Of a DNA stretch of 35,834 bases, positions 1 to 20,127 are shown one piece after another. The position numbers and the translations under genes were made by a program. Source of the stretch: Candidatus Ozemibacter sp. (GTDB taxonomy: Bacteria > Muiribacteriota > Ozemobacteria > Ozemobacterales > Ozemobacteraceae). The stretch is from positions 1 through 35,834 of the forward strand of contig JASURT010000009.1 of assembly GCA_030446435.1 (NCBI GenBank), read 5' to 3'. Numbering within the stretch: the first letter of the stretch is position 1; the number at the start of each line of letters is the position of its first letter. The notes below the pieces were generated by a model that was not told where the DNA came from, did not search any database, and worked only from the letters and a program-made list of their open reading frames with translations.

Positions 1-1542
1 GGTAATGCTGGTGGCAATCGAAATCACAAGCTGAGCAGAATTAACCCCATCTCTAACAGTTATGGTTATATCACCGGCGGCTGTGGCCATATAGCGACTA
101 AATCCCCATTCAACTGCGGTCTGATCTTTCTTGCCATCGACAAAGCCACTGTAAGTGCCTTCGAGGAAGCCAAGTGAAGCAGCCTGAGAAACAATGTTGC
201 CGATAACAACAGTGCTTGCGACAGTTGCCGAAGCCGAGGCAGGTCTTTCATAACTTATTCTCAGCTCGCCTTCAACTACAGAAGCATTCAACCCGGCTAC
301 GCCGACCGCGGTAGTATTGATAAGACGGGCCAGGCCTTCCATGCTGTGTAAACCAGCGCCCACATTTACGGTGATAACCGAACCACCCGCACTGATTTCA
401 AAGCTGGTGGCCGCGCCGGTTATACGAATGCCTTCTTCAAGACCCTGGGTACCGGCTATTTGAGCAGCCTGAGAAGTAAATTTAAGATCGACACCGTTCA
501 AAAGCGAATTGGCGACACTTCCTTCCGTTTTGACCTTTCTGACATTGCCGAAGTTGTCTTTTATCGACACTTCGACCCGATTTTCGACCGCCTCGCGGCT
601 TACCGAAAAGCCAAGCGCATCGACAACCTTCTGGTCAGAAGCCAGTGATACCCGCCCTGAATCACCAATGCTGCCTGAAATTATCTGAATGTAACCGCCC
701 AGCCCTGCAATCTGAGTCTGAATGGTATTAACCGTCGCCGACCTCGAGTTTTCGATGCCCAGACCAGACTTGCTGACAACTGCATTTTGAATTTCAGCAG
801 ACAGATTATCGAGAGTCATCTGGCCATCGAGGGTAATGCTGGTTGAATTACCGTTTCCGTTCAGGGTTATAATCTGCGGGGTATCAAGAACGAAGACCCC
901 GTTTGAATCGTAGAACTGGGCGATACTCTGCAGCTGGGTACCACCCGAAGCCAGTGCGCCCGTACCATCATTAATCGTGAAGATCTGTGATCGCTGCATC
1001 TCGGCGATGCCACCGCGCAACAGGGTTACGTTCACATCATAATCGCCGCCGGCCCCGTTCAAAGAACCCGAGACCATGCCTTTGGCCGAACTGCTGCTGG
1101 CACTTATCAGAGCGGTCTGACTGCCGTCGAGCAGCTTTTTCGTGTTGAATTCGGTATTGCGTGCAATTCGGTTCAGGTCGTCCCTGAGCTGAACCACCTC
1201 TTTCTGAATTTCGAGCCTGTCGTTACTGGTCAGAGTATCGTTCGAAGACTGAATGGCCAGTTCGCGCATTCGATGCAGAATGCTTTGCGACTCATTCAGA
1301 GCACCTTCGGCGGTCTGAATCATTGAAATACCGTCCTGGGCATTTAAAACTGCACGATTCAGACCCCTTATCTGGCGGCGCATCTTTTCACTGATCGCCA
1401 GACCAGCCGCATCATCGGCGGCACTGTTGATTCTCAGACCAGAGCTGAGTTTCTGAATAGATTTTTCGAGACGAGAAGAGCTTTTTGCGACAGAACTGTA
1501 TGTACCAATAGAAAGTACATTCTGATTAATGCGCAATGACAT
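1..1542 (-). CDS. fliC: Flagellin 1, giant, 3' end beyond window
   Basis: Structural protein of the flagellar filament, exported through the flagellar type III apparatus. I translated the frame from the ATG at 1542 to base 1: it is open for 514 codons, so the C-terminal part lies outside the window. The N-terminus starts [12 protein letters not shown] and contains the flagellin D0/D1 signatures [20 protein letters not shown] and [18 protein letters not shown], with LEIQKEVVQLRDDLNRIA following. The region after about residue 150 is a long variable insert (D2/D3), beta-rich and Ser/Thr/Gly-rich, and it includes the block GTYSGFVDGKKDQ shared with flagellins 2 and 3. Canonical flagellins are about 270-500 residues, so this one already exceeds that. 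The SD GGAGG lies 6 bases upstream of the start, inside a hairpin. No promoter was recognised close to the gene; readthrough from flagellin 2 is possible. Family assignment is secure; its exact role among the paralogues is unknown. Confidence 0.96.
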   Translation of the reverse strand, partial: MSLRINQNVLSIGTYSSVAKSSSRLEKSIQKLSSGLRINSAADDAAGLAISEKMRRQIRGLNRAVLNAQDGISMIQTAEGALNESQSILHRMRELAIQSSNDTLTSNDRLEIQKEVVQLRDDLNRIARNTEFNTKKLLDGSQTALISASSSSAKGMVSGSLNGAGGDYDVNVTLLRGGIAEMQRSQIFTINDGTGALASGGTQLQSIAQFYDSNGVFVLDTPQIITLNGNGNSTSITLDGQMTLDNLSAEIQNAVVSKSGLGIENSRSATVNTIQTQIAGLGGYIQIISGSIGDSGRVSLASDQKVVDALGFSVSREAVENRVEVSIKDNFGNVRKVKTEGSVANSLLNGVDLKFTSQAAQIAGTQGLEEGIRITGAATSFEISAGGSVITVNVGAGLHSMEGLARLINTTAVGVAGLNASVVEGELRISYERPASASATVASTVVIGNIVSQAASLGFLEGTYSGFVDGKKDQTAVEWGFSRYMATAAGDITITVRDGVNSAQLVISIATSIT

Positions 1543-1545
1543 CCT

Positions 1546-1590
1546 GATTCCTCCATGAATCTAAAACTTTAATATGCACGCATCCCTGCG
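1546..1590 (-). promoter_or_regulatory. Flagellin 1 leader: two GGA-loop hairpins (predicted CsrA sites)
   Basis: On the minus strand, CGCAGGGATGCG (1579-1590) can fold with GGGA in the loop and fits the CsrA core consensus CARGGAUG. Further on, GATTC-ATGGAG-GAATC (1546-1561) forms a perfect 5-bp stem with the Shine-Dalgarno GGAG in its loop. Two GGA loops about 24 bases apart, the second on the SD, is the layout known for CsrA-repressed leaders such as B. subtilis hag. CsrA binding is inferred from sequence only. Confidence 0.65.
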
Positions 1591-1925
1591 AGATTTATAC
1601 CGACACAACCCCTTCTATCACCACCTTTTCGACACAAACGCCTATAAATGCCCGTTTCATCAGGCGATACTTCACCTGGTCCATTCAGGACTCGCGATGA
1701 GCCTGACACCCATCCACGACTGGCCATCAGCCCTTCTAACAGGTCTCTGGTGCGCCGATTGACCCATCAAAGCAAAGCGACCAGGCGAAATAACACAACA
1801 AGCAATTGCATAAATCAATATTCAAAACTTTTTAAGCTGCATTTATCTGCATGACAAACCAGGTCAGGCAATCGAACAAACGACTGCAAGACGCAAGTTA
1901 ATATCGAGATTTTAGTTTGTCTTCC
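1591..1925. other. Noncoding spacer between flagellins 1 and 2
   Basis: About 335 bases with no ORF that has a ribosome binding site or a recognisable product. The candidate -10-like string GCAGATAA (minus, around 1843-1850) has no matching -35. I see no terminator and no convincing promoter here. Confidence 0.5.
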
Positions 1926-1963
1926 AGGCAAACTCAGAAGAAATCTTTCTTAAGAGTCTGCCT
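1926..1963 (-). other. Long hairpin 3' of flagellin 2
   Basis: Arms 1926-1935 and 1954-1963 (minus: AGGCAGACTC / GAGTTTGCCT) pair over 10 bp with one G-U, and the interior AAGAAA/TTTCTT can extend the fold. It starts 12 bases after the flagellin 2 stop. No T-run follows, so it is not a canonical intrinsic terminator. It may protect the 3' end or be a weak terminator that lets transcripts continue into flagellin 1. Confidence 0.5.
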
Positions 1964-1975
1964 GAAAGAATCTGC

Positions 1976-4246
1976 TTACTGTAGCAGCTGCAATACGCCC
2001 TGAGGCACAAGATTAGCCTGGGCAAGCATTGCTGTACCCGACTGAGAAACAATCTGATTTCTGGTGAACTCAATCATTTCCTGTGCCACATCAACATCTC
2101 TGATTCGAGATTCAGCAGCAGTGAGGTTAGAATGAGTATTTCTAAGGTTATTGATTGCATATTCGAGGCGATTCTGGAATGAGCCCAGCTTTGATCGTTC
2201 GGCAGAGACCTTGTCTATAGCCCGGTTCAGACGACCAATCGCTTTTTGCGCCCCTGAAACACTGGTGAGATCAATCTTGTCAACACCCAACGCAAGAGAA
2301 GTCATATCAGATATGGCAACCTCCATGTTCTGACCCTGGTCGGCACCGATATGAAACTGCGGAGTATTGTTAACAACATGCAATCGGAAATTCTTATCTC
2401 CGGTACCTTTTGCGGTTCCCTCGGACATGCCGAGATCCATCAAGAATGTTCGACCGGCCGAAACGGTACCGCCGGCAGTCGAAGTAAGCTGAAGCGAAAC
2501 CATGCTGGTATAGGAAGTTGCGGCGTCGCGATTTTCGTTACCAACCCTGAGAGAGGTAAAAGCCATTGTACCGCCGACCTGGTCAACTCTTACCGCCACG
2601 CTGGCAGCTGAAAGCTGATCGTTAACGGTTGCCTGGAAGTTGATAAACCTTACCATATCGGCCGCAGTAACCGAACCGGCCGCGGAGGAAGTTACGGTAA
2701 GTATGTTGACAGTAACGGTATTAACACCGTCTGAAATATTCATGTCGATGGTATCGCCTTGAAGCGACAGATCATCACGATAGGTGGTAAAGCCCCACTC
2801 TATTTTAGACTGGTCCTTGTTGCCGTCGACAAAGCCCGAATAAGTTCCATTAAGGAAGCCGAGAGTGTTATTCTGGGCGTTGTTTATAACAATCGCGCTG
2901 CTGACACTAGCGGCGGCTGTGGCTGGTTTCTCGTAAGAGAATCTGATTTCACCTTCCACGACCGCAGCAGAGAGACCCTGCAGACTCGATGCGCCCGTTG
3001 AGATGGCACTTGCAATCTGGTGGTTGAAAAGTCTGGTCAATCCTTCCATTGTCCAGTAGCCGGAACTGATAGATAACTGTACACTGTCGGTGCCGACACT
3101 GACGTTGAAATTCTGCCCGGCAGAAACATACAAACCGGCTTCGAGACCCGACACACCTGCGATTTGTGCTGCCTGTGACTCGAAGTGTACATCAACCCCG
3201 TTAAGCAAACCCACCGCCCGATTGCTTTCTGTTCTGACCTGCCTCAGGTTACCGAAATTGTCTTTCATGGTCACTTCGACCTGGTTGTTTTCTGATTCTC
3301 TCGCCACAGATAGTCCGAGAGCATTGATAACCTGCTGGTCTCCGCTGAAAGAAATTTCCCCTGTCTCTCCGACGTTTCCAGAAATTACTTCGAGATAACC
3401 ACCAAGGCCTGCCACGCCTGTTTGAGCAGTATTGACCACCGCAACTTTTGAGTTTTTAACCCCCAGACCTGTATCACTGTTAACCGCATTTTGAATTGCA
3501 GCAGCGATATTATCGAGAGTCATCTGGGCATCGAGCTGAATCGATGTTGATTTCGCGTTACCGCTTATTGTAATAGTAAGTGGAGTGTCTAATATAAACA
3601 CACCGTTTTCGTTGTAGAACTGCGAAATACTCTGAAGCTGGGTTGTACCCTGCGCCAGCGCCGAGTCTTCACCATTAAGGCTGAATATCTGAGTTCGTTG
3701 CATCTGGGAAACCCCGGATTGAACCAGGGCAATACTAACATCAAAATCGCCCGACCCATCTTTGGGGTACCCTGATACGATTCCTTTGACATAATGCGAG
3801 CTGGAACTGATCAGAGCAGTCTGACTACCATCGAGTAATTTCTTGGTATTGAATTCGGTATTTCGCGCAATTCGGTCAAGATCATCGCGCAACTGCAATA
3901 CTTCTTTCTGAATTTCGAGTCTGTCATTACTTGTAAGGGTGTCATTGGAAGACTGAATAGCCAGTTCACGCATTCGATGCAGAATACTGTGAGTTTCGGT
4001 AAGAGCACCTTCTGCGGTCTGGATCATGGAAACTCCGTCCTGGGCATTTAAAATAGCCCGGTTCAGACCCCTTACCTGGCGCCGCATTTTTTCGCTTATC
4101 GCAAGCCCTGCGGCATCGTCGGCAGCCCGGTTAATTCTTAACCCTGAGCTGAGTTTTTCAATTGACTTTTCAAGTCGATTTGAAGTCTGAGTGAGATTTC
4201 CATAGGTCTGAATAGAAAGAACATTTTGATTGATACGTAGTGACAT
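1976..4246 (-). CDS. fliC: Flagellin 2, giant (756 aa)
   Basis: Filament protein, complete. The N-terminal D0/D1 (about residues 1-150) has [20 protein letters not shown] and [15 protein letters not shown]. The C-terminal D1/D0 (about the last 100 residues) has [19 protein letters not shown] and [20 protein letters not shown], and the protein ends in VLQLLQ. The roughly 500-residue middle is a variable surface insert, about twice a common flagellin in total length. The conserved ends are nearly identical to flagellins 1 and 3, while the middle diverges. The ATG at 4246 is preceded by GGAGG with proper spacing, within a hairpin. The nearest well-formed promoter is the sigma-28-type one at 4556-4583, which would also transcribe the intervening orphan leader. 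A hairpin without a T-run follows the stop. High confidence in family; the number of flagellins in the filament and their order are unknown. Confidence 0.97.
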   Translation of the reverse strand: MSLRINQNVLSIQTYGNLTQTSNRLEKSIEKLSSGLRINRAADDAAGLAISEKMRRQVRGLNRAILNAQDGVSMIQTAEGALTETHSILHRMRELAIQSSNDTLTSNDRLEIQKEVLQLRDDLDRIARNTEFNTKKLLDGSQTALISSSSHYVKGIVSGYPKDGSGDFDVSIALVQSGVSQMQRTQIFSLNGEDSALAQGTTQLQSISQFYNENGVFILDTPLTITISGNAKSTSIQLDAQMTLDNIAAAIQNAVNSDTGLGVKNSKVAVVNTAQTGVAGLGGYLEVISGNVGETGEISFSGDQQVINALGLSVARESENNQVEVTMKDNFGNLRQVRTESNRAVGLLNGVDVHFESQAAQIAGVSGLEAGLYVSAGQNFNVSVGTDSVQLSISSGYWTMEGLTRLFNHQIASAISTGASSLQGLSAAVVEGEIRFSYEKPATAAASVSSAIVINNAQNNTLGFLNGTYSGFVDGNKDQSKIEWGFTTYRDDLSLQGDTIDMNISDGVNTVTVNILTVTSSAAGSVTAADMVRFINFQATVNDQLSAASVAVRVDQVGGTMAFTSLRVGNENRDAATSYTSMVSLQLTSTAGGTVSAGRTFLMDLGMSEGTAKGTGDKNFRLHVVNNTPQFHIGADQGQNMEVAISDMTSLALGVDKIDLTSVSGAQKAIGRLNRAIDKVSAERSKLGSFQNRLEYAINNLRNTHSNLTAAESRIRDVDVAQEMIEFTRNQIVSQSGTAMLAQANLVPQGVLQLLQ

Positions 4247-4251
4247 TGATA

Positions 4252-4291
4252 GATTCCTCCGTGAATCATTTTTAGTTGCGCGTCCTTGCGC
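4252..4291 (-). promoter_or_regulatory. Flagellin 2 leader: two GGA-loop hairpins (predicted CsrA sites)
   Basis: Minus strand GCGC-AAGGAC-GCGC (4278-4291) is a 4-bp stem presenting AAGGAC. Seventeen bases further, GATTC-ACGGAG-GAATC (4252-4267) puts the SD GGAG in the loop of a 5-bp stem. Stem sequences differ from those of the other flagellins while the GGA loop is kept, which is expected for selected RNA hairpins. CsrA as the ligand is inferred. Confidence 0.68.
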
Positions 4292-4356
4292 TCGAGTTTA
4301 AAGAGTATCGAGAATCAAATACCGGTCAAGCGGTTTTTTGCGAAAATTTCAGAACC

Positions 4357-4491
4357 TTATAGGCAAACACCCCCCAAAGTTGCGTCAGCAAAGCATTTGC
4401 CGGCAAATAAAAATTGGGGAAAACAGAATTTTTTGCCCAAACTGATGAAAAAAGCGGGCAAAATAAATTTGTTTAAATGCAAATTATTCAT
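4357..4491 (-). other. Short ORF (44 codons) downstream of orphan leader, probably not a conserved protein
   Basis: An ATG at 4491 stands 7 bases after a perfect GGAGG, giving MNNLHLNKFILPAFFISLGK and ending at a TAA at 4357-4359. It shows no flagellin similarity and no recognised domain. The start signals are good because the upstream leader copies a flagellin leader. I treat it as a possible leader peptide or a by-product of a deletion that removed a flagellin coding region. Confidence 0.25.
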
Positions 4492-4494
4492 TCT

Positions 4495-4532
4495 GATTCC
4501 TCCGTGAATCACAAAAAAGTGCTTCCTTGCAC
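4495..4532 (-). promoter_or_regulatory. Orphan flagellin-type leader with two GGA-loop hairpins
   Basis: Minus strand GTGC-AAGGAA-GCAC (4519-4532) and then GATTC-ACGGAG-GAATC (4495-4510). The SD hairpin is identical over 16 bases to that of flagellin 2, yet no flagellin follows; flagellin 2 starts about 250 bases further on. Together with the promoter at 4556-4583 it forms a complete late-flagellar, CsrA-type 5' unit. It is either a relic of a deleted flagellin gene, a tandem leader for flagellin 2, or the core of a CsrA-binding RNA. Confidence 0.6.
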
Positions 4533-4555
4533 AGGTTAATTTAAAACCTGTTTTT

Positions 4556-4583
4556 TGATCGGCAAGTTTCACGAGAAACTTAA
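4556..4583 (-). promoter_or_regulatory. Sigma-28 (FliA/SigD)-type promoter
   Basis: Minus strand TTAAGTTT (near consensus TAAAGTTT), then GCCGATCA at 4556-4563 (consensus GCCGATAA). The distance from the first four -35 bases (4580-4583) to the -10 is 16, the same as at flgK and flgM in this window. The transcript would start near 4549 and run into the orphan leader and then flagellin 2. It lies downstream of the flagellin 3 terminator, so it opens a new transcript. Confidence 0.65.
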
Positions 4584-4655
4584 CGATTTTTTTATTTTTT
4601 TAATTTTTCCGCCTCAATAATTATGTAAACCTCTTTGATTTCACTTGCCTGAAAT

Positions 4656-4692
4656 AAAAAAAACCGCCCGGGGGCCAAAGCCCTCCGAGCGG
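4656..4692 (-). terminator. Intrinsic terminator of flagellin 3
   Basis: Minus strand GC-rich hairpin (4664-4692; CCGCTCGGAGGG pairing with CCCCCGGGCGG, with one mismatch and one wobble, loop around CTTTG) followed by eight T (4663-4656), 41 bases after the flagellin 3 stop. Confidence 0.88.
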
Positions 4693-4732
4693 AATTTAAG
4701 CGAGAATCTCAGGTTGGAAAGGAAAAGTTCAT

Positions 4733-6919
4733 TTACTGACCAAGAAGCGAAAGCACACTCTGTGGCAACATGTTGGCCTGAGCCAACATTGCGGTACCCG
4801 ATTGTGCCACGATCTGATTTCTTGTGAACTCAATCATTTCCATGGCGATATCAGCATCTCTGATTCTTGACTCAGCAGCGGTCAGGTTACTTGAAGTATT
4901 TCTGATGTTGTTGATCGCATACTCGAGTCTGTTCTGGAACGCTCCCAGTTTCGATCTTTCTGCAGACACCATGTCGAGTCCCTTGTTTATTCTGACCAAA
5001 GCTTCCTGAGCACCCTTTATGGTGGTCATATCAAGATTGTTGACACCAAGAGCGTTTGCAGACATGTCACCCATGGCAACCTGCATATTCTGTCCGGGGT
5101 CTGCACCAATCTGGAACTGAGGCTTATTATCGACAATATGAACTCTGAAGTTAGTGTCGCCACTACCCTTGCTGGTTCCATTCTTAAGACCGAATGCATT
5201 TAAGGTTTCAGCATCGGCAATATTAAGCACCACCTGGCTTTTGATTGGCGAACCAGAGCTGACATTTTCCTGACCGACACGCTGTGCAGTGAAAGCAAGA
5301 GAACCGTTTACCGCATCCAGCTGCACATCGACGTTATTGGCAGCAAGCTGGCCATTTACCGCCGATTTGAATGCGCCAATTTCATAGAAGTCAGGAGTTG
5401 TACCGGCTGAAACCGTAGTAAAGGCTGTGAAGGCAATGGAGTCGGTACCGTCGCCGACATCGAAAGCGATGGCTGTTGCAGTGGCAACCCGATACATACT
5501 GAAACCGTCGATTGATTTCGATTCATCTTTCGCCCCATCGACAAAGCCGCTGTAAAGGCCATTCTGCAGACCGATAACATCTGCTGCGGCCGAACCGATG
5601 TTTATCGTAGAAGCAATCGAAGCGGCTGTGGGCTCGAAAGAGATTCTGAGTTCGCCATCGACAACAGCTGTATCCATGCCAGATATGGCGGTTGTCTGTT
5701 CATCTATCGCCCTGGCGATTCCTTCCATACTCCAGTTGCCTGCGCCGATAGTAACTGTGGCAACCTGGCCACCGGCAGATATCTGGAAAACCTGGGCGGC
5801 AGTAAGCTGAAGACCTGACTGCAAACCACCAACTCCTGCAATCTGTGCAGCCTGAGACGCGAACTGTATGTCAATTCCTTCCAGCAACCCTGAAGCACGA
5901 TCACTGCTGGTTCTGATGTTTCTCACGTTACCGAAAGAATCTTCAAGGGTAACCTGAACCAGCGATTCTGAAGAATCTCGCACGACTGAAAGACCCAGAG
6001 CATCGGTCAAATCCTGTGGACCCGCCACAGAAAAGTCACCTCGGTCTCCCACTGAGCCTGAAACAATCTGAAGATATCCACCCATACCGGAAATACCGGT
6101 TTGTGCGGTTCCAACGACTCCAGCAGATGAATTGGCAATATCGAGCCCTCTGGCACCGTTTAGAGCCTGCTGAAATTCTGCAGCAAGCTGGTCAAGAGTC
6201 ATCTGACCATCAAGAGTAACTTCGACAGACTCGGAATTACCCGAAATAGTCATCTTCTGCGGAGAAGAAAGGGCAAATATGCCGTCTTCATTGTAGAACT
6301 GAGCAATGTCTTCGAGCTTGGTGTTTCCCTGAGCGAGCTCACCAGTATCTTTATCGGTAAAGATCTGCGATCTCTGCATCTGAGAAATACCGCCACTGAT
6401 CAGGCCAATGCTGACACTGTAGTCTCCGCCGCCATTTGTGTTGCCGACCACAACTCCGCGCACGTATTTAGAGGTCGAGCTGATAGAAGAAGACTGACTG
6501 CCATCGAGCAGCTTCTTGGTGTTGAATTCGGTTGAGCGGGAAATTCGATCGATTTCATCACGAAGCTGATTAACTTCTTTCTGAATTTCAAGTCGATCGT
6601 TACTGGTAAGAGTGTCATTCGATGCCTGAATTGCCAGTTCACGCATTCTCTGCAGAATACTCTGCGATTCATTGAGGGCCCCTTCTGCTGTCTGGATCAT
6701 GGAAATACCATCCTGAGCATTCAGGGCTGCACGATTGAGACCTCGGATCTGTCGACGCATTTTTTCACTGATAGCCAGCCCAGCAGCGTCGTCAGCAGCT
6801 GAATTGATTCTTAGTCCTGAGCTAAGCTTTTCAATTGATTTTTCAAGCCGGCTGTTTGTCTGAGTAAGACTTGAGTAGGTTTTGATTGACAGAACATTTT
6901 GATTGATTCGCAACGACAT
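4733..6919 (-). CDS. fliC: Flagellin 3, giant (728 aa)
   Basis: Filament protein, complete. It starts [20 protein letters not shown], with [20 protein letters not shown] and [18 protein letters not shown] in the N-terminal D0/D1. It ends with [19 protein letters not shown] and [20 protein letters not shown] in the C-terminal D1/D0. The middle (about residues 150-620) is a long variable insert containing [14 protein letters not shown], homologous to the corresponding block of flagellins 1 and 2, so the three genes arose by tandem duplication. The SD GGAGG is 7 bases before the ATG, with a GGA-loop hairpin upstream. A strong terminator follows, making this a monocistronic unit. A candidate, imperfect sigma-28-like promoter is at 7069-7097. 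Confidence 0.97.
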
Positions 6920-6925
6920 AGTTTT

Positions 6926-6962
6926 CCTCCTTGATTGTCGTCTTTCAGCGCATCCTTGCGCT
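6926..6962 (-). promoter_or_regulatory. Flagellin 3 leader: GGA-loop hairpin plus SD
   Basis: Minus strand AGCGC-AAGGAT-GCGCT (6947-6962) is a perfect 5-bp stem with AAGGAU in the loop, an excellent CsrA-type site. Sixteen bases later lies the SD AAGGAGG. Unlike flagellins 1 and 2, the SD here is not enclosed by a matching stem. Confidence 0.65.
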
Positions 6963-7068
6963 AAAACTCCTTAATTTTTCAGACCGTAGCTCTGTATCTT
7001 TCTAGAACTTTCGCCTCCTTTCGCCAGGTTTCGATTCAAACAGGCCTATTTTTCCTTATCTATTAGGT

Positions 7069-7097
7069 TTATCGACATTAACCCCCGCATGTCTTTG
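7069..7097 (-). promoter_or_regulatory. Candidate sigma-28-like promoter for flagellin 3
   Basis: Minus strand GTCGATAA (7 of 8 to GCCGATAA, 7069-7076) with CAAAG about 16-17 bases upstream. Spacing is one base longer than at flgK and flgM, and the leader would be about 140 bases. Weak. The rest of 6963-7260 is AT-rich, includes an A/T palindrome near 7180-7194, and shows no gene. Confidence 0.3.
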
Positions 7098-7261
7098 GGC
7101 GATTTTCAGCGATTTAAGGCGTTTTTCAATCTTTAACTCACGAATACTCATCTTTTCTTTTCAATTTAGCTTATTTGCTTTTTTTTAAAAAAAATGAAGT
7201 TGTCCCATAAAAATCAGTAAACAGTAATTTTGAAAGTTCGCTGTTTTTAGAAAAACCTAAA

Positions 7262-7308
7262 GAAAAAACCGGCACTTCGACCTCTAAGAAGAGGCTCAGT
7301 GACCGGTT
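7262..7308 (-). terminator. Terminator of the trx / CoA-disulfide reductase operon
   Basis: Minus strand ACCGG-TCACT pairs with AGTG-CCGGT around an inner CCTC/GAGG hairpin and is followed by a T6 run (7268-7263). It begins about 45 bases after the reductase stop codon. Confidence 0.8.
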
Positions 7309-7353
7309 TTTAAAAGCCATTAAAGCCATAATACTGGCTCTGTCAGAAGATTA

Positions 7354-9801
7354 TCAGATAAACAGACCTGAATTACTTCGGCTCAATTCGTCGACATACA
7401 TTGCCACGCCGCCGATTTCGACACCATCGATGAGTTCAGACTCTTTGATTCCCATAACATCCATGCTCATAGAGCAGGCAACGAGTTTTACCTTATTTTC
7501 GATCGCGCTTTGAAGCAGGTCTTGCAGCGAAGTAACCTTTTTGTCTGCCATTACCTTATGCATCATGGCAGTGCCCATGCCGCCCATGTGCATTTTCGAA
7601 AGTTTAAGACCATCAACCCCCTTTGGCAGCATCATTCCAAACATTTTTTCGACCAGGTTTTTCTCTACCGGCTTTTCGGATTCTTTGCGCAGAAGACTCA
7701 GACCCCAGAAGGTAAAGAAGAGCGTCACATCATAACCGGCTGCGGCAGCACCATTTGCGATTATGAGAGCCGCCATGGCCTTATCGAGATCATTACTGAA
7801 AACCACGTTCGTCATCTTTTTCTGGCATGAAGTCATGGTAACGCATTCAGGCTTACCCAGTTTTTTTACTACGGCGCGATATTTTCCGCCGGCAATTTTA
7901 TCGATCGAAACGCATTCATTGCCGGTAGAATGGCACCAGGCCGGAACATCGGCGGCAAAACCGGGGTCAGTGGCAAGCACTTCAACAGCTTGTCCTTTAG
8001 ACAGCTCATCTACCGCAAGCTTAAGCTTGCTGATCGGGCCGGGGCATTGAAGACCGGAAACATCGATTTGTTTAACAATGTCGATCTGCCCTTCTGACTG
8101 TCTGGCGTGAGTTTCATTTTCACCACCGGCATCGTCGGACATTTCTCTCTTATCATAAAGCGCGTTTTTATTGACCATAGAGTAAGTTTTATAGCCACCA
8201 TCGAGATTGGAAGCTTTAAACCCTTTTTGATGAAGAATTCTATAAGCGAGATAGCCTCTTAACCCTGCCTGGCAATAAACCATATATTCTTTTTCAGGAT
8301 TCAGCTCAGAGATTCTTTCTCTGATTTCATGCAAAGGAATATGCATTGCACCAGGAATTGCGCCGGCCAGAACTTCTTCTTTAGTTCGAACATCGAGAAG
8401 CTTTTTGGCCGAATCGAATTTTTCGATATCTTCGGCATGAAAGTGCTTTGCAGCACCTCTGAGGAGATTTGCCGCGACCATACCCGCATAGTTCACAGGA
8501 TCTTTTGCCGAGCCATAAGGCGGAGCATAACAAAGTTCAAGTTCTTCAAGATCGTAAACAGTCATACCGGCGCGCACTGCAACTGCGAGAACATCGATTC
8601 TTTTATCGACACCATCGAGACCAACGGCCTGGGCACCGAGCACCTTTCCGTTTTCAGGATCAAAAATCAGTTTAAGAGAAATAGAAGTTGCTCCCGGATA
8701 GTAACTAGCGTGACTCGCAGGATGAACATAAACCTTGTCATATTTCAGAGAATTTTTCCTGGCCAGTTTTTCACTAAGACCAGTCATGGCAAAGGTAAGG
8801 TCGAAGACTTTGCATACTGCCGAACCCTGAGTATCCCGATACTCGCGTTCAAGTCCAAATATGTTGTCTGCAGCAATTCTTCCCTGTCTGTTAGCTGGAC
8901 CAGCCAAAGGAATAAGCGCGGGCTTCTGCGTTATAAAATCCGTTACTTCTACCGCATCGCCAACAGCGTAGATTGCAGGATCGCTTGTCTGCATGCGACT
9001 GTTAACCTTAATACCACCGGTAACACCAATATCAAGGCCGGCCTCTTTAGCCAAACCATTTTCGGGCTTAACCCCGATCGCCATAATGACTAAATCGGTT
9101 TCAAACTTTTCACCCGAACTTAAAACTGCAACCAGTCTATCTTTTGCTGATTCAAAAGAAGTTACCGACTGTCCCAGCTTAAGCTTTACGCCATTCATCT
9201 CGATTTCTGCATGCAGCATCGAAGCCATTTCAGGGTCAGATGGCCCCATTACCTGAGGTGCAAGCTCTACCAACACCACATTCATACCCATATGCCGCAA
9301 TGATTCAGTCATTTCAAGACCAATATAGCCGCCACCGACGACCACAGCATCTTTTTTACCCTGAGCGGCTTCTTTGATGCGGTCCATATCTTCCAGATTG
9401 CGCAGCGAAAAAATGTTTTTATTGTCAATACCCGGAATTGGGGGCTTAAAAGGGGCTGCACCAGGGCTTAAAATCAGATGATCGTAAGACTCTGTGTATT
9501 CTTCATCTTTAACGAGATTTTTGACGGTTACCTGTTTTTTTTCTTTGTCGATACTTAGAACTTCATTTCTGGTTCTTACATCGATATTGAATTTTGCATT
9601 CATGATTTCGGGAGTCGTAACCAGCAATTTGTCGCGACTGTCGATAACTTCACTTACATGGTATGGCAAACCACAGTTCGCGAACGATATGTGCTCGCCA
9701 CGTTCAAAAAGTATAATTTCTGCGTCTTCGTTAAGTCTTCTCGCTCTGGCCGCTGCGCTGGCTCCGCCTGCGACACCGCCAACAATTAAAATTTTCATCA
9801 T
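7354..9801 (-). CDS. CoA-disulfide reductase family fusion: CoADR-rhodanese-TusA-DsrE (815 aa)
   Basis: Cytoplasmic flavoprotein for thiol/persulfide chemistry. Domain 1 (about 1-445) is a pyridine-nucleotide disulfide oxidoreductase with the FAD motif GGVAGGASAAARARR, a second dinucleotide motif VVVGGGYIGLEMTE, and the single active-site Cys43 in SFANCGLPYH, typical of CoA-disulfide/persulfide reductases. Domain 2 (about 455-545) is a rhodanese with the loop VYCQAGLRG (Cys near 508). Domain 3 (about 575-650) is a TusA/SirA sulfur carrier with GLQCPGP (Cys near 586). Domain 4 (about 660-815) is DsrE/F-like with ACSMSMD (Cys776). The chain of cysteines suggests intramolecular sulfur relay to or from low-molecular thiols. 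It follows trxA by 13 bases and shares its promoter. The ATG at 9801 has GAGGAG upstream; the adjacent second ATG is equally possible. Substrate (CoA disulfide, CoA persulfide, polysulfide) cannot be told from sequence. Confidence 0.92.
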   Translation of the reverse strand: MMKILIVGGVAGGASAAARARRLNEDAEIILFERGEHISFANCGLPYHVSEVIDSRDKLLVTTPEIMNAKFNIDVRTRNEVLSIDKEKKQVTVKNLVKDEEYTESYDHLILSPGAAPFKPPIPGIDNKNIFSLRNLEDMDRIKEAAQGKKDAVVVGGGYIGLEMTESLRHMGMNVVLVELAPQVMGPSDPEMASMLHAEIEMNGVKLKLGQSVTSFESAKDRLVAVLSSGEKFETDLVIMAIGVKPENGLAKEAGLDIGVTGGIKVNSRMQTSDPAIYAVGDAVEVTDFITQKPALIPLAGPANRQGRIAADNIFGLEREYRDTQGSAVCKVFDLTFAMTGLSEKLARKNSLKYDKVYVHPASHASYYPGATSISLKLIFDPENGKVLGAQAVGLDGVDKRIDVLAVAVRAGMTVYDLEELELCYAPPYGSAKDPVNYAGMVAANLLRGAAKHFHAEDIEKFDSAKKLLDVRTKEEVLAGAIPGAMHIPLHEIRERISELNPEKEYMVYCQAGLRGYLAYRILHQKGFKASNLDGGYKTYSMVNKNALYDKREMSDDAGGENETHARQSEGQIDIVKQIDVSGLQCPGPISKLKLAVDELSKGQAVEVLATDPGFAADVPAWCHSTGNECVSIDKIAGGKYRAVVKKLGKPECVTMTSCQKKMTNVVFSNDLDKAMAALIIANGAAAAGYDVTLFFTFWGLSLLRKESEKPVEKNLVEKMFGMMLPKGVDGLKLSKMHMGGMGTAMMHKVMADKKVTSLQDLLQSAIENKVKLVACSMSMDVMGIKESELIDGVEIGGVAMYVDELSRSNSGLFI

Positions 9802-9814
9802 TTTTCTCCTCTCA

Positions 9815-10126
9815 TCAAGAAACAGCTCTTACAAGAGCTTCTTCTGTCTGCAAACCCTGAAAAACCTTAACCTGCTGGCCATCTTTGAACAAGATCAGGA
9901 TTGGAATCGAAAAGATATTGAATTTCGAAGCAATATCAGGGTTTTCTTCAACATTGAGCTTGGCGATTTTTGCTTTATCGCCGACTTTCTGTGCTACGCT
10001 CTCAAGAATTGGAAGTTGCATCTGGCAAGGACCACACCAGGGCGCCCAGAAATCTACAAGAACAGTACCTTTGCCGGTGAACTCGGAAAAATTTACAGAA
10101 TTTATTTTTTCAACACCAGTACTCAT
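9815..10126 (-). CDS. trxA: Thioredoxin
   Basis: Small dithiol reductant of 103 residues, the normal thioredoxin length. The active site WCGPC is at residues 30-34 within LVDFWAPWCGPCQ, the cis-Pro region reads FSIPILILFKDG, and the Asp in VDFW is present. There is no signal peptide, so it is cytoplasmic. The start ATG at 10126 has AAGGAG 9 bases upstream. It is first in a two-gene operon with the CoADR-rhodanese-TusA-DsrE fusion, so it likely reduces disulfides or persulfides formed by that enzyme. A sigma-54-type promoter stands about 37 bases upstream. Product certain; the partnership is inferred from linkage. Confidence 0.96.
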   Translation of the reverse strand: MSTGVEKINSVNFSEFTGKGTVLVDFWAPWCGPCQMQLPILESVAQKVGDKAKIAKLNVEENPDIASKFNIFSIPILILFKDGQQVKVFQGLQTEEALVRAVS

Positions 10127-10162
10127 GATATTACTCCTTAAAATTTAATTTGTGAAGTAATT

Positions 10163-10178
10163 AGCATGAACCGTGCCA
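10163..10178 (-). promoter_or_regulatory. Sigma-54 (RpoN)-type promoter of trxA operon
   Basis: Minus strand TGGCACG-GTTC-ATGCT: -24 element at 10172-10178 and -12 element at 10163-10167, with the invariant GG-N10-GC spacing. Only one base differs from TGGCACG-N4-TTGCW. The predicted start is near 10152, with a leader of about 25 bases that includes the SD. Confidence 0.7.
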
Positions 10179-10254
10179 GCTTCGACAAAAGCAAACAAGA
10201 CCGGCATCAATAGTGGTTTATCCACCAGAAAATTTTCAAATTTCTCAAACAGTG

Positions 10255-10296
10255 TTGCGCAACCTAAACCGCAACCCTCGCAACCATTGCGCAACC
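10255..10296 (-). repeat. Four GGTTGCG repeats upstream of the sigma-54 promoter (candidate enhancer)
   Basis: The heptamer CGCAACC (plus strand) starts at 10258, 10270, 10279 and 10290, a spacing of 12, 9 and 11 bases, close to one helical turn. The outer two are part of the palindrome TTGCGCAA. The cluster lies about 80-120 bases upstream of the -24 element, where activators of sigma-54 promoters usually bind. A further inverted repeat GTGG-TTTAT-CCAC lies at 10213-10225. Binding protein unknown. Confidence 0.5.
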
Positions 10297-10348
10297 AGTC
10301 AAAATTTCCCCTCGCCACTCAAACGATCGGCGCATATAAAACGCATAT

Positions 10349-10378
10349 AAAAAAAAGAGCTGTCTCTAACGAGACAGC
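10349..10378 (-). terminator. Intrinsic terminator of flagellin 4
   Basis: Minus strand GCTGTCTC-GTTA-GAGACAGC (10359-10378), a perfect 8-bp stem, followed by TC and T8 (10356-10349), 29 bases after the flagellin stop. Confidence 0.93.
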
Positions 10379-10407
10379 CCCTTGTGCAAACCTATGGGGG
10401 GATTTTA

Positions 10408-13029
10408 TTATCTGAGAAGGTCGAGAACAGACTGGGCAGAAACGTTAGCCTGACCGACCATTGCGTTACTTGCCTGCTGCAAGATCTGAGACTGAGTCAT
10501 TTCAATGACTTCAGCAGCCATATCTACGTCTCTGATACGTGATTCAGAAGCAGTCATGTTCTGCAGAGCCACGCGCAAGCTGTTATTGGTGTAAGTCATA
10601 CGATTTTCAATAGCACCGAGCTTGGCACGTTCTGAAGAAATGGTCTGAAGGGCCTTATCGATAAGACCGATTGCGATTTCAGAAGATTTTACGGTGGTAA
10701 GATCGAGATCTTCGATTCCCAGGGCGCGGCAGTCTGTTCTGATTATGTTCGACTTCGCTGTATGCCCCTGATTTGGACCAATCTGGAACTGAATCGAGGT
10801 ATCTTTAACATGCATTGTGAAGGCATACTGACCAACACCGTTTTCGTAAGCAACCGGGTCGATATCGAAGGTAGCCTTAAGAGTATTGAGTGAATCAGGG
10901 CTACCGAGTTCAGTCATGACGACCTTACCGCTCTTACCAGGAATTGTCGAGAACAGTCTCATTGTCTGAGCAGCAGTATTGATTTCGGCGTTAACCTTAA
11001 CCCCGTTGATACTGGCTTCAGAGTTGATAAGATTAGCGATGCTGGTAATCGACTTAAACGAAGCACCTGCAGTAGCCTGGCCTTCAGGAATTGTAATGAC
11101 CATTCCGTTTCCGTCAAGATCGGCAACATAGAACGACAGATTGTCAACCCCCGCAGAAACGGTATTAGCGGCAATTACATAACCAAATCGGCTCGATGCC
11201 TGGTCGTAGGCAAAGTTCTGATCAGCGGCGTTACCGTCGAAACCAGAGGTAGTTGTCTGTTCATGCATTCTAAGACCAACCGAAACATTCTGGCCGCCGC
11301 CGGCATCGGTGATATCAAAGTTTGATTCAACGCCGGTTTCGAGTGATCTGAATGAAAGCAGACCATTGTTGTTTTCGGCAACGATCTTAAGATTGTTGGC
11401 GCCAATCTGCATATTGATCGCTTCGACCAGAGAATTCATTCCGCCGGCACTGTAATTACCGGTAAGAGTAATTGTTGTCTGGGTGGTAGCAGAATGTCTG
11501 TCGGTAATGTTGAACGAAATATCGGTCAGACCAGCCTGAGAAAAGTCATAGCTGCTGATCAGATCGTATGAAGTCGCAACACCTGGATTGCCGCCGCTGC
11601 CGGTATATCGGCCGTTGGCGATTCCCAACGGATTGGCGGGATCAGAGTTTGAACTGATTGAAACGTATGCGGCAGAACCGGTATTGAGAGTAAAGAATTC
11701 GAGAGCATAGTGATCATTAACTCTTGCTCGAACCAGACTGTTAGCAGTAGTCAGTTCATCATTCATGATTGAAGCAATCTGACCCATGCTGAATACGCCT
11801 GTAGCAACAGTGATAGTAACGGTTCCGGCTGCAGTTGTAGAATCGTCGATATCGAAAGTGAAACCGCTGGCGATAGAAATGCCCAGTTCAGCCGAAATAG
11901 TGTTTACGTGAGCTGAAAGTGGCGGTTCAAATGTAAGATCGATACCTTCAATAAGGCCTGCTGCCCTGTGTCCGGCAATCTGGGTAGTCATCGTCTGTCT
12001 TGCTCCGTATGGAACACCGATGTTCGTTACCGCAATAGAATAGACCGGATCTTCAGGAACAACGACCTGCTGGAAACCAAGAGCTTTTACCAGCGCTTCT
12101 TCACCGGTAAAGTTGATTCTGCCAAGCTCACCGTTTCTGCCTGAGGTTACAAGAATCTGACCATTGCTTTCGCCATAAGTCATAAAAAGAGATTCTGAAC
12201 CATCGAAATGCAGGCCTTTACCAAGCTGATCTTCAGTCATGCCTTTGAGAATTCGATCGGTCAACTGACCAAGTGTAAGGTCTTTGCTGACGATGATTTC
12301 GCCCTGACTGTTATCACCCTGTAGATAAAGGGTCTGTGGCAGATCAAGAATGAAGTGACCGTTGTTGTCGTAGAAATTGGACAAAGATTGCAGCGTAGTG
12401 CTTGAAGAAGCAATTTCGCCTTCTACGGTAGTAAAAATGTTTGATCGCTGCTGTTCAGGGGTGCCACCATACACTTTTTGACCAATACCGGGAACATACT
12501 CGGATTTTGGCCATACAACAACAGAGAAATCAGAAAAAGTAAGAACCTCGCCAGTAACAACCGGGTCGAGGTTTTTGGGATCACTTGTTGAAATCTTGGC
12601 AGTTCCGCTTCCATCAAGAAGTTTTCTGGTATTGAATTCAGTACCATAAGAAATTCTGTTGATGTCTTCTTTGAGCTGCGCGATTTCTTTCTGAATTTCG
12701 AGTCTGTCAGTTGTGGTGAGGGTGTCGTTGCCTGATTGCAGTGCGAGTTCACGCATGCGCTGAAGCATGCTGTGAGTTTCATTCAGAGCACCTTCGGCTG
12801 TCTGAATGAGACTGATTCCATCCTGGACGTTCATGATGGCCCGATTAATACCACGCACCTGAGTGCGAAGCTTCTCGGAGATTGTCAGACCAGCAGCATC
12901 ATCAGATGCTCGATTAATTCTCAGGCCTGAGGACAGGCGTTCAATTGAGCTAGACAACCTGCTGTCGTTTTTTACCAGGTTGCTATGCGCATTTAGAGCC
13001 GTTACATTTGTGTTAATACGCAGGGCCAT
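10408..13029 (-). CDS. fliC: Flagellin 4, giant and divergent (873 aa)
   Basis: Filament protein, the largest of the four. The N-terminus starts MALRINTNVTALNAHSNLVK and contains SSGLRINRASDDAAGLTISE. The C-terminus has KLGAIENRMTYTNNSLRVAL and ESRIRDVDMAAEVIEMTQSQ and ends in VLDLLR. These differ clearly from the [11 protein letters not shown] type of flagellins 1-3. The central insert of about 600 residues is roughly three times a normal D2/D3. One cysteine is visible near the C-terminal region (RTDCRALG), unusual for flagellins. It sits directly after csrA, as hag does in B. subtilis, so it may be the ancestral copy. The SD GGAGG is 9 bases before the ATG; no GGA-hairpin pair like that of flagellins 1-3 is evident. 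A terminator follows. Confidence 0.96.
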   Translation of the reverse strand: MALRINTNVTALNAHSNLVKNDSRLSSSIERLSSGLRINRASDDAAGLTISEKLRTQVRGINRAIMNVQDGISLIQTAEGALNETHSMLQRMRELALQSGNDTLTTTDRLEIQKEIAQLKEDINRISYGTEFNTRKLLDGSGTAKISTSDPKNLDPVVTGEVLTFSDFSVVVWPKSEYVPGIGQKVYGGTPEQQRSNIFTTVEGEIASSSTTLQSLSNFYDNNGHFILDLPQTLYLQGDNSQGEIIVSKDLTLGQLTDRILKGMTEDQLGKGLHFDGSESLFMTYGESNGQILVTSGRNGELGRINFTGEEALVKALGFQQVVVPEDPVYSIAVTNIGVPYGARQTMTTQIAGHRAAGLIEGIDLTFEPPLSAHVNTISAELGISIASGFTFDIDDSTTAAGTVTITVATGVFSMGQIASIMNDELTTANSLVRARVNDHYALEFFTLNTGSAAYVSISSNSDPANPLGIANGRYTGSGGNPGVATSYDLISSYDFSQAGLTDISFNITDRHSATTQTTITLTGNYSAGGMNSLVEAINMQIGANNLKIVAENNNGLLSFRSLETGVESNFDITDAGGGQNVSVGLRMHEQTTTSGFDGNAADQNFAYDQASSRFGYVIAANTVSAGVDNLSFYVADLDGNGMVITIPEGQATAGASFKSITSIANLINSEASINGVKVNAEINTAAQTMRLFSTIPGKSGKVVMTELGSPDSLNTLKATFDIDPVAYENGVGQYAFTMHVKDTSIQFQIGPNQGHTAKSNIIRTDCRALGIEDLDLTTVKSSEIAIGLIDKALQTISSERAKLGAIENRMTYTNNSLRVALQNMTASESRIRDVDMAAEVIEMTQSQILQQASNAMVGQANVSAQSVLDLLR

Positions 13030-13098
13030 AGGTTTGCCTCCATGACTATTTGGGGTTCAATCCGTTTTTTTGCTTCGAAGCTTTTATTTTTCCCCATC

Positions 13099-13135
13099 TA
13101 TTTAAACCATCGGAATATCTAGTCAACAAACGTTA
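13099..13135 (-). promoter_or_regulatory. Candidate promoter for flagellin 4
   Basis: Two overlapping readings on the minus strand. Sigma-70-like: TTGACT (13121-13126), 16 bases, TAAATA (13099-13104). Sigma-28-like: TAACGTTT (its first four bases at 13132-13135), 17 bases from TAAC to TCCGATGG (13107-13114). Neither is perfect. Confidence 0.4.
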
Positions 13136-13184
13136 GCTCGATATTCGACAGTTATAGCCAAATAATGTTCCTTATCTTCGTTTT

Positions 13185-13460
13185 TCACGATTTTGCTTTG
13201 TTTTTTGGTTTAATATCTTTTTTTCCGAAGTTTTTAAGAATATCCTGAGGAAGACTCTTAAGCGGATCAAGAGACGTGATCTTAGCGGCTTCCTGGTTTT
13301 CTTTCTGGATTTCTTCGTAAACTTCCCAACGATGCACTTTTACACTTCTGGGTGCGTTAATGCCGATTTTTACCTGATCTTTTCCGATATCAACCAGAAC
13401 AATCTCGACATCATCGCCAATGATTATCTTTTCATTTATCTTTCTGGTAAGTACCAGCAT
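13185..13460 (-). CDS. csrA: Translational regulator CsrA with C-terminal extension
   Basis: RNA-binding dimer that blocks translation by binding GGA in hairpin loops; in flagellated bacteria with FliW it represses flagellin. The N-terminus [17 protein letters not shown] has the conserved Leu4 and Arg6; the C-terminal RNA-binding Arg44 is present in [14 protein letters not shown] (Trp where Glu is common). It is 91 residues against the usual 60-80, with an extra basic tail (about residues 63-91, ending KPKNKAKS). Its ATG overlaps the fliW stop (TAATG), so the two are translationally coupled and made together. Candidate targets, the GGA-loop leaders of flagellins 1-3 and the orphan leader, are in this same window. 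Identification is secure. Confidence 0.96.
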
Positions 13461-13957
13461 TATCCCTCACCCTCCTTTTGATCGGAGTCGAGAGAGTCCT
13501 GCACCTCTTTCAGTCTGGCCGCACGTTTTTCCATCTCATCGAGAATTCGCGCTTTAACCGAGTGACGGGTATTGCTGGAAATTATCTGCCGGCCTTTGCG
13601 GTTGGCAGCATTGATAACCAGTGGGCCCTGAAGATTTGCGGTCATATCCTGCGGGTTTTGCGGGATAGAAACTATTACATAGATGACTGCATCTTCTGCA
13701 CGCTTTAAACCAATAAAGTCAGCATCAGAATCTGAAATTTCGAGATCATATTCGAACATGAAGCTCAGGGGCTCAATGATTACGAATGCAAGATTCCCAT
13801 CATCAACACATTGCAACCAACGGAACGGGCTTCCGTCATCCGTATTGAAAACAACATATCGATGGTAATCCTCAAAGCCAAGTAAGCCTTCGTCGAAGGT
13901 TATAATCTCTTCTTCAGCAATGCTTATTTTTCCAAATCTGGATGTGGAAAGATTCAT
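13460..13957 (-). CDS. fliW: Flagellar assembly factor FliW
   Basis: FliW binds CsrA and releases flagellin mRNA from repression; flagellin in turn sequesters FliW, so secretion of flagellin is sensed. The 165-residue protein shows the family signatures [18 protein letters not shown] near the N-terminus and [18 protein letters not shown] in the C-terminal half. It has an acidic Asp/Glu-rich tail. It lies 22 bases after flgL and overlaps csrA by one base. The start at 13957 has AAGGAAATAAG upstream, a moderate SD. Established model from B. subtilis and Campylobacter; activity here is inferred from family and linkage. Confidence 0.95.
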
Positions 13958-13979
13958 ACTTAACGCTTATTTCCTTCGT

Positions 13980-19746: not shown

Positions 19747-20127
19747 TCAGCCCTCCCAGGAATCTCTGATAGCTCTGTGGTTCCAGAGTTTTTCAGCCAC
19801 TGCTTCGGCAGGCACGTTATATTGACCTGCGTCAAACAGTTTCTTGATTCGATCAACCTTTTCGGCTCGTACGTCTGGTTCGCCGGCAACAACTTCAGCA
19901 GCGAACTTGACAGTCTCAACCGGGTCTGCCTGAGCCACAGGTGCGCCGGTTAATATGGGATTATTTGGATTAATCCCGCTGGGTGGGTGGAAAGCTTTGG
20001 TCTTGTTTTCGGTCTTTTCAGCTGAATCCTGCATCATTTTGCGGAATTCGCCGTCAACCTTGTCGCCCTTGGCCTTCTTAACCTGGTCCTGATAGATACT
20101 TGTTACATTAATATTGGAAACCTTCAT
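19747..20127 (-). CDS. flgM: Anti-sigma-28 factor FlgM
   Basis: FlgM holds sigma-28 inactive until the hook is finished and FlgM is exported. The 126-residue product is slightly longer than usual (about 90-100). The C-terminal third carries the FlgM pattern VRAEKVDRIKKLFDAGQYNV followed by PAEAVAEKLW (about residues 83-115), while the N-terminal half is polar and low in order, as expected. A sigma-28-type promoter stands 75 bases upstream, consistent with autogenous control. The SD AGGAGG is 4-5 bases before the ATG. It is followed by flgN and preceded by comF, as in B. subtilis. No sigma-28 gene is in the window. Confidence 0.9.
   Translation of the reverse strand: MKVSNINVTSIYQDQVKKAKGDKVDGEFRKMMQDSAEKTENKTKAFHPPSGINPNNPILTGAPVAQADPVETVKFAAEVVAGEPDVRAEKVDRIKKLFDAGQYNVPAEAVAEKLWNHRAIRDSWEG

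Follow-up and report, generated by a model that had tools for sequence, protein, structure and literature searches.

Why does a complete flagellin leader stand in front of no flagellin? The question is raised by contig C43 (35,834 nucleotides, hereafter the window) of Candidatus Ozemibacter sp. (Candidatus Riflebacteria, Ozemobacteraceae; genome G000, 3.3 Mb). On its minus strand, an orphan unit lies between the terminator of the flagellin gene 6919-4733 and the next flagellin gene (4246-1976, hereafter flagellin 2). The unit runs from the upstream terminator through a sigma-28-like promoter, a 5′ hairpin, a hairpin with GGA in its loop, a Shine-Dalgarno (SD) hairpin, a 44-codon open reading frame (ORF), and a sigma-70-like promoter to the flagellin 2 leader (Table 1). 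Downstream of the orphan leader, there is the 44-codon mini-ORF and no flagellin N-terminus. The first-pass annotation, made from the DNA letters, had offered three readings: a flagellin was deleted while its control region was kept, the leader acts in tandem with that of flagellin 2 to give four GGA sites, or the RNA titrates CsrA. All the elements that it named are in place on the minus strand, and the 5′ hairpin and the conserved sigma-70-like promoter of flagellin 2 can be added to them. The tandem leader appears to fit the comparative data best. I consider it an even bet that the orphan is a detached flagellin-type leader with a mini-cistron and that selection maintains it as an additional regulatory module for flagellin 2.

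Conservation of the orphan leader

Is the orphan maintained or decaying? I compared 24 genomes of the family, in which G001 is the sister species of G000. G001 has two orphan leaders (A and B) in this position, with spacings of 240 and 238 nucleotides. The first hairpin of the window orphan is identical to that of leader A at 14 of 14 positions (GTGCAAGGAAGCAC), and the orphan SD hairpins of the two species agree at 15 of 16 positions, with the start codon kept. These identities persist despite saturation of the four-fold degenerate sites of the flanking flagellins (33% and 31% identical) and despite mini-ORF spacers that are unalignable between the window and G001 (z 1.6 and -0.6), which argues for selection. 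Since the sequence of the first orphan hairpin is absent from all other leaders collected from G000 and G001, gene conversion does not explain the identity. The first hairpin of flagellin 2 is also common to both genomes (GCGCAAGGACGCGC). Thus, the orphan and flagellin 2 hairpins each pair with their own G001 counterpart and form orthologous pairs that were not homogenised. Decay of the hairpins in close relatives, which had been named as evidence against a functional RNA, was not seen in the sister species. The spacers of leaders A and B resemble each other strongly (z 19), indicating that leader B was produced by a clean tandem duplication of a 240-bp unit.

The same layout (terminator, sigma-28-like promoter, leader, short ORF with an ATG or GTG at the right spacing, and flagellin 2 leader) recurs in this position in G001, G022, and G023. 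Because 9% contamination is listed for G023, its orphan copies are to be treated with caution. The sigma-28-like sites are TAAT-N16-ACCGATAA in G001, TAAA-N16-GCCGAAAC in G022, and TAAG-N15-GCCGACAG in G023, the last one found by reading. The G001 orphan has a 5′ hairpin of another sequence at the same place (GAGCC..GGCTC). As a separate observation, nearly identical DNA surrounds a flagellin-like fragment in G023 (C59:4642-4690) and in G006 of another genus (C33:1240-1288), which suggests cross-contamination of metagenome-assembled genomes or a recent transfer.

Can transcripts of the orphan reach flagellin 2? No convincing intrinsic terminator was found between the orphan leader and flagellin 2 in the window, and a strong one is lacking there in all four orphan-bearing genomes. 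Thus, transcripts from the sigma-28-like promoter should reach flagellin 2. On the other side, the upstream terminator insulates the unit from the flagellin 6919-4733. This terminator was detected in six of the seven genomes sharing the flagellin order (G000, G001, G022, G023, G004, G011, and G021); G001 has a T-poor hairpin there. The -35 sequence TTGAC of flagellin 2 lies at the same distance from the hairpin (-37/-38) in G022, G004, G011, and G021 as in the window. In G001, TTGAC lies at -39 before the duplicated leader B, and the box adjacent to flagellin 2 reads ATGATC and is degenerate, so that flagellin 2 depends on upstream promoters.

The leader as an RNA element of the family

Is the leader a true RNA element? 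The first orphan hairpin is a CAAGGAAG hexaloop hairpin. The orphan leader has two GGA hexaloop hairpins, one of which covers the SD sequence; their spacing of 23 nucleotides lies inside the range of about 18-25 expected of flaA/hag-type leaders. The 16-base SD-hairpin motif, rightly noticed at first to be identical in the orphan and flagellin 2, occurs exactly at three places in the genome, all inside this array; allowing two mismatches adds three further places genome-wide, with none for the reversed control. The pattern GATTCANGGAGGAATC with at most one mismatch has matches in 20 of the 24 genomes, nearly all in flagellin arrays or at flaG, and its reversed control has one match in total. 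In this family, a GGA-loop hairpin and an SD hairpin lie ahead of flagellin starts. When 52 leaders were aligned, standard pairs filled 93.8% of the cells of the two stems (81.6% in shuffles), and 62 cells were double-changed (18.5 in shuffles), a count reached by none of 500 shuffles. The covariation is destroyed when the pairing partners are slid. Judged from this alignment, the flagellin leader is a genuine RNA element, the covariation being strong enough to define it. The hairpins had been called CsrA-type from the beginning. Covarying hexaloop hairpins on flagellin leaders and the presence of csrA and fliW in the window bear this out, and CsrA is predicted to bind the leader.

A covariance-model search (E<=1e-3) gave 90 leader matches in the 24 genomes. 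Most of them (61) lie directly before a flagellin, while 12 are followed by a short ORF and then flaG, 5 precede flagellin fragments or contig ends, 3 precede an EF-hand-like gene, and 1 precedes a long repeat ORF. The remaining 8 are free-standing in the flagellin arrays of six genomes: one in the window, two each in G001 and G023, and one each in G022, G019, and G008. Detachment of the leader from the flagellin recurs in the family. The window orphan itself was recovered in the genome-wide search with E=6.5e-9, and the fold of its 67-nucleotide leader beats 200 of 200 dinucleotide shuffles (z -3.3). A special long structure across the 298-nucleotide orphan-to-flagellin region was rejected (fold z -0.97). 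A DNA search of the own genome found no second copy of the intergenic region, and an Rfam search of 1400-14500 gave nothing relevant.

A weaker leader copy with a sigma-28-like site (GTGCCGATAA) is present at G000:C169:1584-1619 before an ORF of more than 300 codons, which has an Asp-rich EF-hand-like motif (MAIAAS...DLAGDGLNLTEAGKGAIFDVNADGKLDS) and orthologous matches in G001, G011, and G018. This is probably a further late, CsrA-controlled gene. A flagellin-type leader also precedes a 451-codon ORF of repeats of about 18 residues (YDPGTTHRLKQSGLLGHP) from G006:C26:28167 onward.

What does the leader precede at flaG? In the flaG class, a sigma-28-like promoter and a flagellin-type CsrA leader are followed by a short ORF of 29-76 codons before flaG. 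In several genomes, the short ORF ends at, near, or over the flaG start. The frames are kept open (joint P 1.6e-6, with kinship not corrected for), and the ratio of nonsynonymous to synonymous changes (pN/pS) is about 0.75-0.85, indicating that the peptide hardly matters. As far as sequences can tell, the flaG class is a good case for CsrA-controlled translational coupling, and its logic is clearer than that of the window orphan. In the flaG leaders of G020 (near 11650), G015 (near 3490), and G018 (near 3470), the leader is followed by a conserved stretch, TACATTCCTCAGAAAAATCCTTGAT, whose sequence complements the SD hairpin GATTCAAGGAGGAATC if a bulge is allowed. This pairing could form an alternative SD-masking structure.

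Might all these cases have one principle? It is an unlikely generalization that the flagellin CsrA leader of Riflebacteria is a movable control cassette, that is, a leader and a throw-away mini-cistron put before flagellins and flaG. The CsrA/FliW status would determine, via translation of the mini-ORF, the access of polymerase or ribosomes to the real gene. The signal would be the act of translation, and the peptide would be irrelevant.

The regulators are encoded close by. The minus-strand cluster of the window contains csrA, fliW, genes of the flagellin/FlgL and FlgK types, and flgM, and fliA is encoded in the same genome (G000:C244). Almost every family genome has one csrA and one fliW. 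Besides the flagellins already mentioned, the array has one from 1542 onward, and a fourth flagellin-type gene lies upstream (13029-10408, minus strand). Inside the flagellar cluster, an 815-residue Pyr_redox-rhodanese-TusA-DsrE2 fusion, a sulfur-transfer protein, is encoded at 7354-9801 (minus strand). Antisense to the oxidoreductase gene, 9611-9779 (plus strand) matches the Rfam family V_AS7 at 68 bits (E 2e-11), under its gathering score; the match probably reflects conserved coding sequence.

Table 1. Features of the window, and flaG-class loci in the family genomes
Feature	Position	Strand	Remark
Intrinsic terminator of upstream flagellin, CCGCTCGGAGGGC..GCCCCCGGGCGG + T8	4656..4692	-	stem 4692-4664; 11 pairs, 10 of them G-C, then 8 T
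Sigma-28-like promoter TAAG-N15-GCCGATCA	4556..4582 (boxes 4582-4579 / 4563-4556)	-	7/8 of -10 box, 3/4 of -35 box
5′-terminal hairpin ACAGGTT-N7-AACCTGT	4531..4551	-	overlaps first two bases of GGA hairpin
Orphan leader, first CsrA-type hairpin GTGC-AAGGAA-GCAC	4519..4532	-	covarying stem, CANGGANG loop
Orphan leader, second CsrA-type hairpin with SD, GATTC-ACGGAG-GAATC	4495..4510	-	same as flagellin 2 copy
44-codon mini-ORF (MNNLHLNKF...GGVCL)	4357..4491	-	peptide not alignable with G001 ORFs
Flagellin 2 sigma-70-like promoter TTGACC-N16-TACTCT	4302..4329	-	-35 box conserved at fixed distance
Flagellin 2 first CsrA-type hairpin GCGC-AAGGAC-GCGC	4278..4291	-	identical in G001
Flagellin 2 SD hairpin	4252..4267	-	sequence match to orphan SD hairpin
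Flagellin 2, 756 amino acids, proposed to be served by the tandem leader	1976..4246	-
csrA domain	13302..13460	-	PF02599, E 1.6e-24; one copy
fliW domain (CsrA antagonist)	13544..13903	-	PF02623, E 5.2e-39; one copy
flgM domain (anti-sigma-28)	19786..19905	-	PF04316, E 2e-10
flaG-class loci	G001:C57:5400-5439, G004:C77:94807, G011:C41:31508, G016:C6:266088, G021:C141:17135, G023:C187:3898
Further flaG-class loci	G015, G018, G019, G020, G006:C8, G013:C9

Possible roles of the orphan

How may the orphan serve flagellin 2? In the preferred explanation, completion of the hook would allow FliA (sigma-28) to start a transcript near 4549. The RNA would carry the 5′ hairpin and the two GGA hexaloop hairpins, one of them over the ribosome site of the mini-ORF, and, without a terminator, would run through the two GGA hairpins of flagellin 2 into the gene, making four GGA sites. 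CsrA dimers may sit on the two leaders and be removed by FliW once flagellin has released it. Flagellin 2, already expressible from its own sigma-70-like promoter, would gain a late-class promoter and a second CsrA dimer site (two instead of one), and translation of the mini-ORF may shield the RNA upstream of flagellin 2. This scheme is built on the hairpins, their covariation and conservation, the layout of promoters and terminators, and csrA, fliW, flgM, and fliA, all seen in the genomes; it predicts transcription, read-through, CsrA binding, and an effect on flagellin 2.

Several points weigh against this explanation. The orphan is dispensable, as it is missing from G004, G011, and G021, where the terminator and the TTGACG promoter stand alone at this place. 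Flagellin 2 has its own promoter and leader, and a second set could be redundant. The distance from the mini-ORF stop (the ORF ends at 4357) to the flagellin 2 start (4246) is 110 nucleotides, too far for classical coupling. The orphan promoter had been read as TTAA-N16, one base off from the reading TAAG-N15-GCCGATCA of the same site. Its boxes match TAAA-N15-GCCGATAA at 10 of 12 positions, a score matched by 21 of 300 single-base shuffles of the intergenic DNA, so that the promoter match by itself is mildly unusual and weak. In the minimum-energy fold of the window leader, the first GGA pairs with a U run and the hexaloop hairpin is not formed; in the 39-nucleotide leader alone, the first hairpin folds and the SD hairpin does not.

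Is the orphan a relic of a lost flagellin gene, its control region having been kept by inertia or co-opted later? The arrays are in flux. In G001, an intact leader in mid-array is followed by a decaying flagellin pseudogene with TGA, TAG, and TAA stops (C64:2503-2964), and the 240-bp duplication created the second orphan. Broken flagellins also lie behind intact leaders in G006:C160 and G002:C98, and a decayed leader is found at G004:C77:99943-99988. However, such relics in related genomes retain flagellin codons or lose the GGA, while the window orphan has its hairpin, SD sequence, and start codon intact at saturated divergence, and the ORFs and translations of its locus contain no residual flagellin coding sequence. 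Furthermore, a flagellin at the orphan place is absent from all seven genomes that share the flagellin order. Thus, the deletion proposed in the first-pass annotation gained no direct support, although the family does make flagellin pseudogenes. A recent relic is unlikely because the orphan is conserved and no flagellin lies here in the seven genomes, while an ancient relic co-opted as a control region is possible. Taken as a whole, the loss of a flagellin seems rather unlikely as the explanation.

It is quite improbable that the orphan makes a sigma-28-driven RNA that absorbs CsrA as the late genes switch on, perhaps after Rho termination or processing, and frees other flagellar mRNAs. The idea, also raised at first, has a precedent in the Campylobacter jejuni flaA leader and its flaA_mini form (PMC4894983). 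The predicted high-affinity hexaloop pair, with its 23-nucleotide spacing, and the two orphan copies in G001 are consistent with it. However, the GGA hairpins of the orphan number only two, none of the four orphan genomes shows a strong terminator, and the start codon and ribosome site are retained. The same sites are already on every flagellin mRNA of the array, and FliW is present as the expected CsrA antagonist.

Is the mini-ORF product itself important? Peptide homology between the window mini-ORF and the G001 ORFs was rejected, as the spacers show no significant similarity, and copies A and B of G001 share DNA in shifted frames. The mini-ORF is thus not conserved as a peptide by sequence comparison, and its peptide sequence is probably unimportant. 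A 7-bp inverted repeat inside it (TTGCCC/GGGCAA in the window, CTGCC/GGCAG in G001) may represent a hairpin with compensatory changes, two genomes being too few to decide. All eight array orphans have an ATG or GTG 2-3 nucleotides past the SD element, their frames are jointly open (P 0.007), and several of the peptides combine hydrophobicity with a basic patch. However, the ORFs of two array orphans span just 8 or 16 codons, the length of the window ORF is within chance (p 0.20), and the flaG-class pN/pS speaks against a selected peptide, so that a small peptide, secreted or in the membrane and regulated together with flagellin, is very improbable and the least likely explanation.

Comparison with known CsrA systems

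At the sequence level, the leader extends the CsrA-FliW control of flagellin to a phylum on which the papers searched contain little. Of nine papers found that pair Riflebacteria with flagella, none is on flagellin regulation, judged by title. The orphan locus is a testable example in which one flagellin has a tandem pair of CsrA leaders and promoters of two classes, and a leader used apart from its flagellin would be a natural counterpart of the engineered flaA_mini decoy. How does it compare with known systems? The small RNAs CsrB, CsrC, and RsmZ have many GGA hairpins and their own terminator at the end. The orphan resembles them in GGA hairpins predicted to bind CsrA, but it has two such hairpins (four if read through), a ribosome site, and predicted read-through in place of a strong intrinsic terminator.

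The C. jejuni flaA leader, with a hairpin spacing of 21 nucleotides, titrates CsrA, also as the 250-nucleotide flaA_mini RNA with 17 codons, and Bacillus subtilis hag is cited in the same paper as a CsrA-controlled flagellin leader (PMC4894983). The orphan is like these leaders in its spacing of about 20 nucleotides and in its genome with CsrA and FliW, and it has a sigma-28-like promoter; it differs in its phylum and in what comes next, a 44-codon ORF and then another complete leader instead of a flagellin. It shares with flaA_mini a putative flagellin promoter, a leader, a few codons, and the absence of flagellin, but it is natural and lacks the terminator whose addition turned flaA_mini into a discrete RNA. 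The short upstream ORF of iraD, through which CsrA represses by translational coupling (PMC5574718), resembles the mini-ORF in that a CsrA site, predicted from sequence in the orphan, covers the SD of a short ORF preceding the regulated gene. However, the stop of the iraD ORF overlaps the gene start, while the mini-ORF stop lies 110 nucleotides upstream. The overlapping geometry of iraD occurs in only part of the flaG class, and it is present in the flaG-class leader of the sister species (G001:C57:5424).
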